64,000 bases of DNA. It comes from Virgibacillus sp. MSP4-1. GTDB taxonomy: Bacteria; Bacillota; Bacilli; Bacillales; Alkalibacillaceae. The translations under genes were made by a program, and so were the position numbers. Positions within the stretch are counted from its first letter, which is position 1; each line of letters starts with the position of its first letter. Where the stretch lies: positions 2,542,001 through 2,606,000 of the forward strand of contig NZ_CP048021.1 of the NCBI RefSeq assembly GCF_010092505.1. The letters are read 5' to 3'. Positions 933-47,111 of this stretch are shown one piece after another. The notes under the pieces are model-generated. The model did no database searches and was not told the origin of the DNA. It was given only the letters and a program-made list of their open reading frames with translations.

Positions 933-1479
933 TATCGTAATGAGAGGTGATGAAGGCCATTTATCCTTAAGATTTATATGGATTTGGTCTTCATGGGATC
1001 AATGACGGACACTTTTGGCGAATTCCGCCATTCATTTGGCCTTCATGAAACCTGTGACGGACATTGGATGATTATCTTTTCATAAATTTGGCCTTCACAA
1101 CTTTGTTGACGGACACTTCCGGCGAATTCCACCATTCATCTGGCCTTCATGAAACCTGTGACGGACATTGGATGATTATCTTTTCATAAATTTGGCCTTC
1201 ACAACTTTGATGACGGACACTTCCGGCGAATTCCACCATTCATTTGGCCTTCATGAAACCTGTGACGGACATTGGATGATTATCTTTTCATAAATTTGGC
1301 CTTCACAACTTTGATGACGGACACTTCCGGCGAATTCCACCATTCATTTGGCCTTCATGAAACCTATGACGGACATTGGATGATTATCTTTTCATAAATT
1401 TGGCCTTCACACCTTTGATGACGGACACTTCCGGCGAATTGCACCATTCATTTGGCCTTCATTCATAATCTTATAAAGA
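933..1479. repeat. 52-bp-phased dyad array, 11 positions (104-bp higher-order repeat)
   Basis: Eleven 27-bp dyads have centres at 946, 998, 1050, 1102, 1154, 1206, 1258, 1310, 1362, 1414 and 1466, exactly 52 bp apart. Arms follow TGGCCTTCAT / ATGACGGACA. Two 52-bp subunits alternate, one beginning GACGGACACTTCCGG and the other GACGGACATTGGATG. The near-identical unit is therefore 104 bp (starts 1004, 1108, 1212, 1316, 1420). The array fills the gap between the Nudix gene and the divergent MFS gene. It has no credible coding potential. Confidence 0.93.
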
Positions 1480-17033: not shown

Positions 17034-17136
17034 GCAATCGCCTCCTTGCTTCTATCATATAATAAAATTAGGGTTTTATCATTTAGAATGTTGGGGATAG
17101 CGGGGAATGGCATGAGATGGCGTGTGATGCCGTGTG

Positions 17137-18411
17137 ATGCCGTGTGACGCCGTGTGACGGCCATTTTTTATGGTTTTTACCTGGGATTTGGCCTTCATTT
17201 CCTGGATGATGGCCATTTTTATTGCTTTTCAGCCTCATTTTGGCCCTCATTTCCCGGATGATGGCCATTCCTCGCCAGAGAGCATCCCCCAATGGCCTTC
17301 ATCTCTTTTATGAAGGACAGTTTTTTCTTATTATCCATTCCTTTTGGCCTTCATCCCCCGCTCCTGCCTTGGTCCGGATCTATGAGGTGCCGCTGACTGC
17401 CTGTGATGGCCATTTTTATTGCTTTTCACCTGGGATTTGGCCGTCATTTCCTGGATGATGGCCATTTTTATTGCTTTTCAGCCTCATTTTGGCCCTCATG
17501 TCCCGGATGATGGCCATTTCACGCCAGAGTGCATCCCCTACTGGCCTTCATCTCTTTTATGAAGGACAGTTTTCTCTTATTATCCATTCCTTTTGGCCTT
17601 CATCCCCCGCTCCTGCCTTGGTCCGGATCTATGAGATGCCGTGTGACGCCGTGTGACGGCCATTTTTTATGCTTTTTACCTGGGCTTTGGCCCTCATGTC
17701 CCGGATGATGGCCACTTTTCTTACTTTTCAGCCTCATTTTGGCCCTCATGTCCCGGATGACGGCCATTCCTCGCCAGAGAGCATCCCCCACTGTCCATCA
17801 TCCCTTTTATGAAGGACAGTTTTCTCTTATTATCCATTCCTTTTGGCCTTCATTCCCCGCTCCTGCCTTGGTCCGGATCTATGAGATGCCGTGTGACGGC
17901 CATTTTTTATGCTTTTTACCTGGGCTTTGGCCTTCATTTCCTGGATGATGGCCATTTTTATTGCTTTTCAGCCTCATTTTGGCCCTCATGTCCCGGATGA
18001 TGGCCATTCCTCGCCAGAGATCATCCCCTACTGGCCTTCATCTCTTTTATGAAGGACAGTTTTCTCTTATTATCCATTCCTTTTGGCCTTCATCCCCCGC
18101 TCCTGCCTTGGTCCGGATCTATGAGGTGCCGCTGACTGCCTGTGACGGCCATTTTTTATGCTTTTTATCCGTGGTTTGGCCTTCATTTCCTGGATGATGG
18201 CCATTTTTATTGCTTTTCAGCCTCATTTTGGCCTTCATTCCCCGATTGACGGCCACTTTTCTTACTTTTCAGCCTCATTTTGGCCCTCATTTCCCGAATG
18301 ATGGCCATTTCACGCCAGAGAGCATCCCCCACTGTCCATCATCCCTTTTATGAAGGACAGTTTTCACCTATTCTCTATTCCCTCTGGCCATCATCCTATC
18401 CTCCCTCCATC
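17137..18411. repeat. 52-bp-phased dyad array, 26 positions in five blocks
   Basis: Dyad centres lie at 17150, 17202, 17254, 17306, 17358; 17399, 17451, 17503, 17555, 17607; 17649, 17701, 17753, 17805, 17857; 17889, 17941, 17993, 18045, 18097; and 18138, 18190, 18242, 18294, 18346, 18398. Spacing inside blocks is 52 bp throughout. The joints are 41, 42, 32 and 41 bp. Corresponding positions in successive blocks are closely similar (for example GGTCCGGATCTATGAG at 17371, 17620, 17870, 18110), so the higher-order unit is about 240-250 bp. Open frames inside are repeat translations and not genes. Confidence 0.95.
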
Positions 18412-22096: not shown

Positions 22097-23263
22097 TTAT
22101 AAATTCTCAAAGAACAGCCGTACAACGTCAGCGCCACCAATAAACGTTCCTAAAGAGCTTCCAATGTTGGCGAGTACAACAACCAGTAAAATCCGGGTAA
22201 CTTTGTTGTTCCAAAATCCTTTCACGTGAAAAACATCCTCTGACAAGTTTTCAAAATCCCGCACGTTCGGACGACGGAGAAAGGCTTGGACAATTCCTGC
22301 AATAAATCCCGCTGCAACCAGAGGATTTAAAGATGTAATCGGTGCTGCGACAAAAGCAGATAAAATAGTGAGAGGATGAGCAAAGGCAACAGCTGTGCCA
22401 ATCGCTGAAAAGCTGCCGTTCCACAACACCCAGCTAAGGGTCTGCTGCATACCTGCCGATGGATTTGTCGCAAATGTATAGGCGATTATACTTAAAATGA
22501 GAATGGGTATGGCCCATGCAATGATTTTTGGAGCTTTTGATTTCGACGGCCGTTCTGAAAGCTTGTCCAAATCATGGTCCCGATGCAGCTCTTCTGTGAT
22601 ACCTGGTACATGGGCAGCACCTAACACTGCAACGACCTTCTCCCCTGGGGCATTTTTGATTTTTTCAGCCAGGTATTGATCCCGTTCATCAATTAAGGGC
22701 TTTTTCAGCTTGGGAAAGTACTCGGTAAACTCCTGAAGCATGGAATTCAGCATATCCTGAGACTTCATTTTTTCGAGCTCCTCCTCAGAGATGGTTTCCC
22801 GGCTGAAAATACTCCCCACTACCTCTGTCAGCAGCATAAACTTTCCTTTAAGGCCAATGTTTCCCCATACTCTTGAAAAGGTAACTTGAATATTCCGATC
22901 GGCCAGAACTAAGTCAGCTCCAATCTCCTCTGCTGATTCCATTCCTTGTATCATTTCCTGTCCCGCATTAATGCCAAACTGCTTGGCCATGCGCTTCTGG
23001 AAGGAGGAGATGGCTAAATTCATTAACAGCAACGTCGCTTTTCGTTCTTTAATGACTTTAAATATATCCATATCCTGCCACTTACTATCTTTTTTGATCG
23101 ACTGATAACGCTGTTCATCCAACTCTATACAAACGGAATCCGGCTGTTCCGCTTCAATCACTTCTTTCACCTGCTCTGCACTTTGTTTGGAAACATGAGC
23201 GGTTCCAATGAGGATAATTTCCTTTCCATCCAGCTCAAGCCGTGTAATATTTTCTTCAGACAT
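22097..23263 (-). CDS. TraB/PrgY-family membrane protein
   Basis: A 388-residue protein. The N-terminal TraB domain is recognised by EIILIGTAHVSKQSAEQV and DSVCIELDEQRY, with a second conserved motif VVAVLGAAHVPGI near residue 210. The C-terminal third has four or five membrane helices. The family is named after proteins that shut down self-pheromone in enterococci. It is structurally related to GumN and Tiki proteases, with the GTAHV histidine as a proposed metal ligand. No pheromone system is visible here, and the role in Bacillaceae is unknown. The promoter region abuts a long 20-21-bp-phased repeat array. Confidence 0.82.
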   Translation of the reverse strand: MSEENITRLELDGKEIILIGTAHVSKQSAEQVKEVIEAEQPDSVCIELDEQRYQSIKKDSKWQDMDIFKVIKERKATLLLMNLAISSFQKRMAKQFGINAGQEMIQGMESAEEIGADLVLADRNIQVTFSRVWGNIGLKGKFMLLTEVVGSIFSRETISEEELEKMKSQDMLNSMLQEFTEYFPKLKKPLIDERDQYLAEKIKNAPGEKVVAVLGAAHVPGITEELHRDHDLDKLSERPSKSKAPKIIAWAIPILILSIIAYTFATNPSAGMQQTLSWVLWNGSFSAIGTAVAFAHPLTILSAFVAAPITSLNPLVAAGFIAGIVQAFLRRPNVRDFENLSEDVFHVKGFWNNKVTRILLVVVLANIGSSLGTFIGGADVVRLFFENL

Positions 23264-23455
23264 ATGTAACCTTCCCTTTATAGAAACTGAGTTCAGTATC
23301 TTTTTATTGAAAACCTTATTTCATCATACAATAATAAGCGAAAATAGGAAAATGGAGAATCAATGGCGTTATATCTCCTTCTATATTTTCTGCAAAAAAT
23401 GGAAAATCCCTCTATTGTATTTTGTGAGGCGAATTACCCTTGCTGTTTGGGGATA

Positions 23456-23497
23456 GGAGTGGGAGTTGGGGGATTGGGAGTGGGAGTTGGGGGATTC
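23456..23497 (+). repeat. Tandem 21-bp G-rich direct repeat
   Basis: GGAGTGGGAGTTGGGGGATT occurs at 23456 and again at 23477. The G-tracts could form a quadruplex on the plus strand. The 21-bp step is in phase with the adjoining array. Confidence 0.75.
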
Positions 23498-24088
23498 GTC
23501 CGAAATGATGGGATTTAAGCCTGTAATTCCGGAATTATGCATGATTCACTATTATTAAGCGAATTTTTATTTATTTAAGCCTGTAGGAGTGCTATTCTGT
23601 CCTGTTTTGAAATTTTTTAAGCCGGTTTTGGAAAAGATTCGTCCTGTTTTCAGAAGTATTGGGCCGGGGTTTCTATGATTGAGCCTATTTTTCAATGATT
23701 AAGCCAAAAACAGATTCATTAAGCCGGGGAGAAATCAAATCAGCCGAAAAGATATCAAATAAGCCGGGAATCTATTAAGTAAGCCAGAACTTTACGAAAT
23801 CGTCCAAAACACAACGAATCTATCCAGCACAATAACAATAAAGCATAAAATCCAATAAGTAAGCGAAACCTTCATTATTTAATCCAATACACTCTCTTTT
23901 AAACCAATTTCCAAAATCATTCATCCAACTTCAAAGAGGATTCAACCAGTTTTGCAAAAGATTAGGCCGAAATCCACAAAATTAAACCCTTTACACTTAT
24001 ATCCAGCATAAAGCTCCTTATTTAATCCCCCCACCCTATATATAAGCCAAACTTTTATCATTCAATCCACTACAGCGTTCATTATGCT
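23494..24088. repeat. 20-21-bp-phased short-word array, about 30 units
   Basis: Eight-base words ending in CC (ATTCGTCC, TTTAAGCC, ATTAAGCC, AATCAGCC, ATTCATCC, ATTAGGCC and similar) start at 23494, 23514, 23534, 23554, 23574, 23595, 23616, 23637, 23658, 23678, 23698, 23718, 23738, 23758, 23778, 23798, 23818, 23838, 23858, 23878, 23898, 23919, 23940, 23961, 23981, 23997, 24021, 24041, 24061 and 24081. The 12-13 bases between words are unrelated to one another. One interval is 16 and the next 24. It fills the gap between aprX and the TraB-family gene. Confidence 0.88.
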
Positions 24089-24105: not shown

Positions 24106-24138
24106 AAAAAAGGAGGGAGTACATGACGACTCCCTCTC
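24106..24138 (-). terminator. Intrinsic terminator of aprX
   Basis: GAGGGAGT and ACTCCCTC pair on the minus strand around a short loop and are followed by CTTTTTT, nine bases or so after the aprX stop. Confidence 0.85.
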
Positions 24139-24146
24139 TACATTCT

Positions 24147-25478
24147 TCATGATTCCGGAATTGCATTTTCCGCATTTATATAACCGGCGCCATAAACATT
24201 AGGGGCTCGATTATCCCAGCGCGTCGTATTCGTCTTTAACGATTCCTTCACTTGATCCGGTGTTAAACCAGGATTATTTTCAAGCATCAGACTGACCACT
24301 CCCGCACAAATCGGTGTGGCCATCGAGGTGCCTGACAACGTAAAATAATTTTCGCCTACACGATTGGATTTTTGCAGCTTATCTAAATAGGAGTTTGGTG
24401 AGCGAAGAGAAATAATATCGACTCCAGGGGCGACTATATCAGGCTTCTCCTCGCCATAGATGGTCGGGCCTCTGCTGGAGAAGCTGGCTATTTCATCATC
24501 ACTCCGGGTATTTGCCGTGTTGCGGTCATCGAGAGCCCCAACGGTAATGACCCGATCGCTAATGCCTGGACTGGCAATGGTCTGGCGGTCCGGTCCGCTG
24601 TTGCCGGCTGCTACCACAACGGTCATTCCTTCTCTCCATGCCTCTTCCACTAATTGCACCATGGGATCCTGATCTTCGTTTCCGTAATCCTGTGCAGATG
24701 TACCGAGAGACATACTCATAATATCAATTTTGTTATCAGGGTTCTTTTCATTATATGAAATACACCACTCAATTCCATCCATTATCGTATCAAGTGTACC
24801 TGAGCCCAGACTATCTAAAACCTTCACACCTGCTAAGCTGGCTTCCGGCGCCGGCCCCCTGTACTGAGATGAGGATTCAGAGCCATTTCCGGCAGCATCA
24901 CCTGCACAGTGAGTTCCGTGTCCATTATCGTCATAAGGTTCGGACTCATCATTGACAAAATCAACGAAATCTGTAATTCGACCCGATAAATCCTGATGAG
25001 GGTAAATACCAGTATCCACAATGGCAACTTTTGTACCCTTTCCTGTGAGCTCCGTACCATTCCGCACAACATTTCTGGCATTTGCAGATTCTACCGCAAC
25101 ATCCAGCAGTGCATGCACCCGTTTATTTTTATAGACCTTTTTAATATGCTTACAGCTGGTCAGCATCTCTTCTAAACTATTAGGGGTCAAATCCGCGGAA
25201 CAGCAGGATACTCGGGAAAAATACTTATTTACTTTATTCTTCCCATGTCGGTTTGCGATTTTCTTTACCTCATGACACCCTGCATCATAAGCATCAGGGT
25301 CAAACTGGATAATGACCGGCAGTTTCTTTGATCGCTTGAGCCGGTTCTCAAAAGCCTGATGCAAAAAGCAAGGCGTATATTTAAAAGGTTTATATAGATG
25401 AACTAATTCTTCACGTAAAGGCCGTTCCATTTTATTGGCATACTGACGCACCATTTGAATCATCGAATAGCCAAACAC
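24147..25478 (-). CDS. aprX: Subtilisin-like serine protease, AprX type
   Basis: A 443-residue S8 peptidase. The catalytic Asp is in VAIVDTGIYPHQD, His in NGHGTHCAGDAAG, the oxyanion Asn in VVAAGNSGP and Ser in SGTSMATPICAG. There is no signal peptide. The N-terminus MFGYSMIQMVR and the length match Bacillus AprX, a protease without a secretion signal reported mainly from stationary-phase cells. The N-terminal 125 residues form a propeptide-like domain. The gene is monocistronic with its own terminator, and its 3' flank is the 20-21-bp repeat array. Confidence 0.92.
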   Translation of the reverse strand: MFGYSMIQMVRQYANKMERPLREELVHLYKPFKYTPCFLHQAFENRLKRSKKLPVIIQFDPDAYDAGCHEVKKIANRHGKNKVNKYFSRVSCCSADLTPNSLEEMLTSCKHIKKVYKNKRVHALLDVAVESANARNVVRNGTELTGKGTKVAIVDTGIYPHQDLSGRITDFVDFVNDESEPYDDNGHGTHCAGDAAGNGSESSSQYRGPAPEASLAGVKVLDSLGSGTLDTIMDGIEWCISYNEKNPDNKIDIMSMSLGTSAQDYGNEDQDPMVQLVEEAWREGMTVVVAAGNSGPDRQTIASPGISDRVITVGALDDRNTANTRSDDEIASFSSRGPTIYGEEKPDIVAPGVDIISLRSPNSYLDKLQKSNRVGENYFTLSGTSMATPICAGVVSLMLENNPGLTPDQVKESLKTNTTRWDNRAPNVYGAGYINAENAIPES

Positions 25479-46611: not shown

Positions 46612-46798
46612 CCGTCCTTCTAATACATTTACCTTTATTCATGTTCAGAAAAAAAATGGAATATACAGCAGCGGCTTGTGTACTGTAGTTTGCTTGATTA
46701 AATTAGATCAAATTAGATGAAACCTGAGTGAAGTTGATCCATCCCGGATAGCAGGAAGGAATCGTCATTAATATATGAATGAAACCAAAATCCCTATA

Positions 46799-47111
46799 AT
46801 TAAGCCGAATTTTAGTTTATTATGCCAGTCAGACAGCTCATTCATCCGATTTTGAAAATAATTTAACCAGTTTTAAAATGAATTCGTCCACTATTGAAAA
46901 CTTTCTGTCCGGTTTTGTCTGAATCGAGCTGAATTTTATAAAATCAGCCCGATTTATAAACAATTTACCCTGAATTTCCTTTATTCGTCCAATCCCACCT
47001 GAATGGAGCCGAAAACAGCGGAATTCATCCGGCCTCGCCGGTATTCATCCTCCTTCCCCGGAATTCATCCATCTCTCCCGGATAAATCCACAGCCAGTCC
47101 CGTATAAAGCC
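46799..47111. repeat. 20-21-bp-phased short-word array, 16 units
   Basis: Words ATTAAGCC, ATTATGCC, ATTCATCC, ATTTAACC, ATTCGTCC, TTCTGTCC, AATCGAGC, AATCAGCC, AATTTACC, ATTCGTCC, ATGGAGCC, ATTCATCC (three times), ATAAATCC and ATAAAGCC start at 46799, 46819, 46840, 46861, 46882, 46903, 46922, 46942, 46962, 46983, 47003, 47023, 47043, 47063, 47082 and 47104. It is the second locus of the family at 23494-24088. It lies between the PAP2 and mqo genes. Confidence 0.88.

Follow-up and report, generated by a model that had tools for sequence, protein, structure and literature searches.

In the 64-kb stretch of DNA analysed here (the window), an array of short phased words occupies the space between a gene for a TraB family protein and one for a subtilisin-like S8 peptidase (Table 1). 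A G-rich duplication adjoins the array on one side and a terminator-like hairpin on the other. A scan of the whole window with a step-aware detector reported two places only, this array and a second one of the same kind, which is flanked by a SepP-like phosphatase gene and mqo. Two arrays with other words and longer periods also lie in the window.

Table 1. Features of the window and chromosomal sites of a further array class (window positions unless a contig is named)
Feature	Position	Strand	Basis
52-bp (five-turn) array, TGGCCTTCAT / TGACGGACA words in both orientations	982..1462	.	
TTTGGCCTTCAT / GATGGCCATT word array with periods of 52 and 249 bp	17116..18410	.	
Flanking gene, TraB family protein (TIGR00261)	22097..23263	-	
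21-bp duplication, G-rich, sharing the array's phase	23445..23496	+	TRF; phase read from sequence
Array of 30 phased ATTnRKCC-like words, 20 or 21 bp apart	23494..24088	+	Step-aware motif fit and shuffle test
Run of four successive 21-bp units, three with TTTT..AAA-type spacers	23574..23657	+	Motif fit
Run of three successive 21-bp units	23898..23960	+	Motif fit
Terminator-like hairpin, 3' of the S8 peptidase gene, adjoining the array	24113..24136	-	
Flanking gene, subtilisin-like S8 peptidase	24147..25478	-	
Second such array, 17-19 units, including a run of four 21-bp steps	46717..47111	+	
TGACTGATA / GGTGGATA sites 1-7	Contig C1 at 16.7, 19.2, 79.5, 458.8, 528, 1449.8, 1795.8 kb		
TGACTGATA / GGTGGATA sites 8-13	Contig C1 at 1896.7, 2427.8, 2906.4, 3089, 3115, 3192 kb		

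Words, steps and borders of the array

A preliminary description had counted about 30 words of the form WWTnnnCC at steps of 20 to 21 bp, and a variable-step motif fit indeed places exactly 30 units in the array, with 22 steps of 20 bp, 7 of 21 bp, and no other. The fit has no need of the 16-bp step followed by one of 24 bp that had also been described, and this detail was not reproduced. The word itself holds for most of the array: strict matches number 21, against 6.4 expected from 2000 dinucleotide shuffles, while about ten units are off by one or two letters. Pairs of strict words 20-21 bp apart occur 14 times; the 2000 shuffles gave 0.13 on average and never more than 4. The autocorrelation of CC within the array peaks at 20/21, 40-42, and 60-63 bp. 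The phasing is far above that of the shuffled sequences, the reverse of the outcome that had been set as refuting.

Likewise, the adjoining G-rich duplication was recovered by TRF and shares the phase of the array, its in-phase word being ATTGGGAG at 23473. It is all that TRF reports here; the array body is absent from the output. An ordinary tandem repeat or VNTR was rejected, as had been proposed, since neighbouring units do not have the whole unit, spacer included, in common. No open reading frame of at least 80 aa runs over the array body, and a BLAST search in plasmids gave no match.

Arrays across the chromosome and the conservation of their words

The window lies in a single 3.33-Mb contig. 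The genome, probably that of a salt-loving Salinibacillus, was covered by searches together with sampled stretches, and its arrays were found with a sequence-only profile of four units and the step-aware detector. Where a single array had been described, there are 21, of 8-83 units each, comprising 636 steps and 501 distinct units. The genome-wide search for phased words that had been suggested gave the same picture without recourse to the profile: a triplet of WTTnnnCC words spaced at 20 bp matched 94 times, always within the 21 arrays, and the reversed control never. Steps other than 20 or 21 bp are rare (12/636). All 21 arrays are intergenic, lying between co-directional (13), convergent (6), or divergent (2) gene pairs; a small or partial reading frame, which may be spurious, overlaps two of them.

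Arrays of this class lie mostly on the left chromosome arm. The window array is 137 kb from dnaA, which is at 2.702 Mb. A link of the arrays to the replication origin had a raw p of 4e-7 but a p of 0.11 with only six independent clusters, for which reason it is not claimed. Two further classes occur in the same genome. The 52-bp class, whose TGGCCTTCAT / ATGAAGGACA words point either way, is present at about 18 places besides the two in the window, and arrays of this period with words on both strands were also seen in unselected genomes. The third class consists of TGACTGATA-type words at 21 bp (46 pattern matches, control 0); its TGACTGATA / GGTGGATA sites lie mostly on the right chromosome arm.

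Across the 21 arrays the word reads A-T-T-V-R-K-C-C, with C at position 7 in 99% of units. Steps of 21 bp are clustered, forming 39 runs of three or four where 6.1 were expected and 14 was the maximum of 2000 within-array permutations, and every array of at least 12 units (18/18) has such a run. These runs recur in arrays with unrelated spacers, and their own spacers tend towards wGTTTTgAAAATA; a T3+..A3+ spacer is found in 63 of 128 distinct 21-bp units versus 18 of 373 20-bp units. In a genome of another family (G401), T5 spacers go with 21-bp steps, which there nearly alternate with 20-bp steps. Spacers of 20-bp units have an A/T maximum ten bases past the word's own, with G/C maxima between, a weak 10-bp rhythm whose amplitude is 0.98 as against at most 0.28 in permutations. 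Given this rhythm and the T4nA4-like spacers of 21-bp units, the earlier statement that spacers show no similarity is not quite right, although it is true that only the word is kept.

Several arrays contain duplicated blocks of 11-20 units, which allow word and spacer to be compared between copies. Word letters changed in 3.7% of cases (42/1125) and spacer letters in 16.4% (442/2700; Fisher p = 7e-32), a 4.4-fold conservation of the word. The blocks compared are not independent of one another and may have undergone gene conversion, neither of which favours word over spacer. The nnn letters changed in 12.3%, word position 7 in none of 225, and the T4 letters of 21-bp units were also kept, with 2 changes in 58 at each of the four positions. 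Together with the rarity of other steps, this contrast between word and spacer is read as purifying selection on both word and phase.

Phased arrays in other genomes

Two other genomes of the genus, Salinibacillus xinjiangensis and S. kushneri, were compared. In S. kushneri the gene order around traB is kept, but the gap holds other genes and no array. S. xinjiangensis has arrays of TTyAGCAT and GACGTGATT words. In 80 genomes with traB, the orthologous place has no array of this word next to the gene, and flanking proteins revealed no common neighbourhood for the array loci of different genomes. Scans that assume no preset word, used to find phased arrays elsewhere, detected 21-bp arrays in two Oceanobacillus genomes, besides the S. 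xinjiangensis arrays, the TGACTGATA-type class described above, and the ATTRRGCG elements described below. The three-word pattern had at least five matches in 31 of 397 Bacillales genomes (counted from the tabulated matches), with examples of 80 versus 0, 42 versus 3, and 31 versus 2 against the control. In some genomes the reversed control is itself enriched, which suggests that arrays with other words are present there and means that counts of the WTT word understate such arrays. Outside the Bacillales, among about 215 genomes of the phylum sample, none had more than two three-word matches, the same as in controls. Many Bacillales carry arrays of the same kind, often with different words.

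Some of the high-count genomes (G004, Bacillus fonticola) carry plain 20-bp satellites with common spacers, so that some members of the class could be neutral repeats. In B. fonticola (L430, L433, L435) these are homogeneous, intergenic, and up to 31 copies long, and further periods of 40, 42, 60, and 80 occur. Intergenic TRF repeats cluster at 20-22, 38-42, and 51-52 bp, in a tally in which two of the genomes had been preselected for 20-bp matches. Four-word matches in viral contigs are likewise plain satellites, except in L452 (IMGVR_UViG_2509601041_000002), where four TTTTGTCC words at 20 bp with unrelated spacers lie next to a terminator. Shorter elements were seen as well. Two genomes from another genus of the same family (G003, G022; L172-L190) have dispersed, MITE-like ATTRRGCG elements of 5-6 units with inverted-repeat ends, and in one genus (L215-L218 in G348, L268, L272) elements of 5-6 units end in TGTCGAAT, a sequence that resembles a Spo0A box.

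A candidate docking platform, its alternatives and known systems

We consider it moderately probable that the arrays are docking platforms on double-stranded DNA for a sequence-specific protein that stacks or wraps, and that they grow by tandem duplication and are kept by selection. A putative DNA-binding protein would contact the word (ATTnRKCC, or GGMYnAAT in the complementary strand) once per two turns of the helix. Its adjacent subunits would then sit on one face of the DNA, where they could stack, form a polymer along the DNA, or wrap it. Where 21-bp units with T4nA4-like spacers come in threes or fours, the geometry would be different, perhaps that of an assembly centre. Growth may have proceeded through tandem duplication, both of single 20-bp units and of blocks of about 220-400 bp, after which spacers would drift while selection holds word and phase. 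The placement of words on one face, the selection, the lack of an RNA fold and of a reading frame, and a placement unlike that of promoters all fit such a platform, as does the A/T rhythm, which is expected for DNA bent on a surface.

The preliminary description had proposed a DNA-bound polymer or stacked protein because a two-turn phase is held across about 30 units. Docking sites at two turns on double-stranded DNA are supported by the selection, by the 10-bp rhythm, and by folds no better than those of shuffled sequence; the protein polymer bound to them, and with it an architectural role in the chromosome, is what we infer. Some observations sit less easily with a docking platform. Array position is not conserved, as the S. 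kushneri neighbourhood illustrates, and words differ from genome to genome. Furthermore, A-tracts are usually credited with a tighter helical repeat, whereas the T-tract spacers here are one bp longer, the opposite of what such a repeat would need.

Alternatively, the arrays might be selfish or neutral satellites, with slippage or unequal exchange as the source of their expansion. The word would then be needed only by the expansion machinery (for example, a nicking or recombining enzyme) or would be the remnant of a young homogeneous 20-bp satellite. The homogeneous satellites of B. fonticola, the block duplications inside arrays, and the differing places of arrays among related species are in keeping with this. 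Slippage alone, however, does not give words that persist as spacers diverge, nor the near absence of other steps, and the recurrence of 21-bp runs in arrays of unrelated spacers also argues against satellites, which we therefore regard as unlikely. That the arrays are an ordinary regulatory region with many sites for one transcription factor seems very improbable: their consistently intergenic position would suit it, but some are found between convergent genes, one holds as many as 83 sites, and promoter-like sites are not in excess around the window array.

A transcribed RNA or single-stranded DNA hairpin element, to which the inverted-repeat ends of short elements in some relatives might point, is extremely improbable, being largely refuted by RNA and DNA folds of the array that on both strands are weaker than those of shuffles (z +1.6, +1.75, +2.5). 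An Rfam RNA family was rejected too, as no curated covariance model matches the 64-kb window at gathering score. Explanations by RNA folding, by coding, or by promoters only fail for these arrays. Finally, the DNA could be wrapped by octamer rings of RemA, a protein that recognises AT-rich direct repeats of weak conservation, spaced at 10 bp, and that has been proposed to wrap DNA (PMC8481266). The spacer rhythm and the presence of RemA-family genes agree with this, but the arrays have strong words at 20-21 bp rather than 10, and 6 of the 21 separate convergent genes. Moreover, RemA-family genes occur in 31 of 31 genomes, with or without the tested word (two copies in 30 and one copy in the other, whatever their arrays), and RemA thus does not explain the distribution of arrays. 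We find this reading quite unlikely.

More broadly, and more tentatively than for the docking platform itself, we suggest that Bacillales carry an undescribed class of intergenic array where selection acts on nothing but a short genome-specific word and its helical phase, at two or five turns. Such an array would serve as a chromosomal scaffold on which an architectural protein assembles, its 20- and 21-bp steps forming a built-in pattern. Novelty is provisional: no earlier description of such arrays was found in a search of open-access literature. If correct, an order that includes laboratory models and industrial strains would carry DNA with a message in its spacing as much as in its letters. 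Selection would hold this DNA at many loci in each genome, and it would have been overlooked since divergent spacers conceal it from alignment and repeat finders. A further implication would be a new nucleoid or chromosome-arranging protein, for whose isolation the word offers a direct handle.

Several known systems resemble the arrays in part. Plasmid iterons likewise recur in direct orientation at about every second helical turn, with near-identical units in a replication origin that has a rep gene. The arrays were rejected as iterons, since they keep the word only and differ in their spacers, and since the window array lies 137 kb from dnaA with no rep among the flanking genes. STAR elements of Staphylococcus aureus repeat a short word in intergenic DNA at many loci, but the word is longer and GC-rich, the spacers are longer, and the 20-21-bp helical phase is lacking. 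The direct repeats of parC on plasmid pSK41, which have a 10-bp period and lie next to parM-parR, are occupied in the segrosome by ParR, a DNA-binding protein whose molecules stack into an extended structure (PMC4911067). The arrays, in contrast, are chromosomal and dispersed, with drifted spacers, and a ParR/parC centromere was rejected because the neighbours of the window arrays (traB, the S8 peptidase, the SepP-like phosphatase, and mqo) include neither parM nor parR. RemA binding regions at epsA and tapA of Bacillus subtilis comprise about six sites upstream of promoters (PMC8481266). Like the arrays, they are found in Bacillales and are proposed to be wrapped around an oligomeric protein, and their direct repeats are AT-rich, helically phased, and weakly conserved. 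They differ in that the arrays have strong words every 20-21 bp, extend to 83 units, and also lie between convergent genes; the arrays depart from RemA sites in their main step, in a 10-bp signal that is just a weak A/T rhythm, and in positions that are not confined to promoter upstream regions. The arrays, then, are real, selected, and recurrent, and fit none of RemA sites, ParR/parC centromeres, iterons, tandem repeats, or Rfam families; RemA is their nearest precedent.
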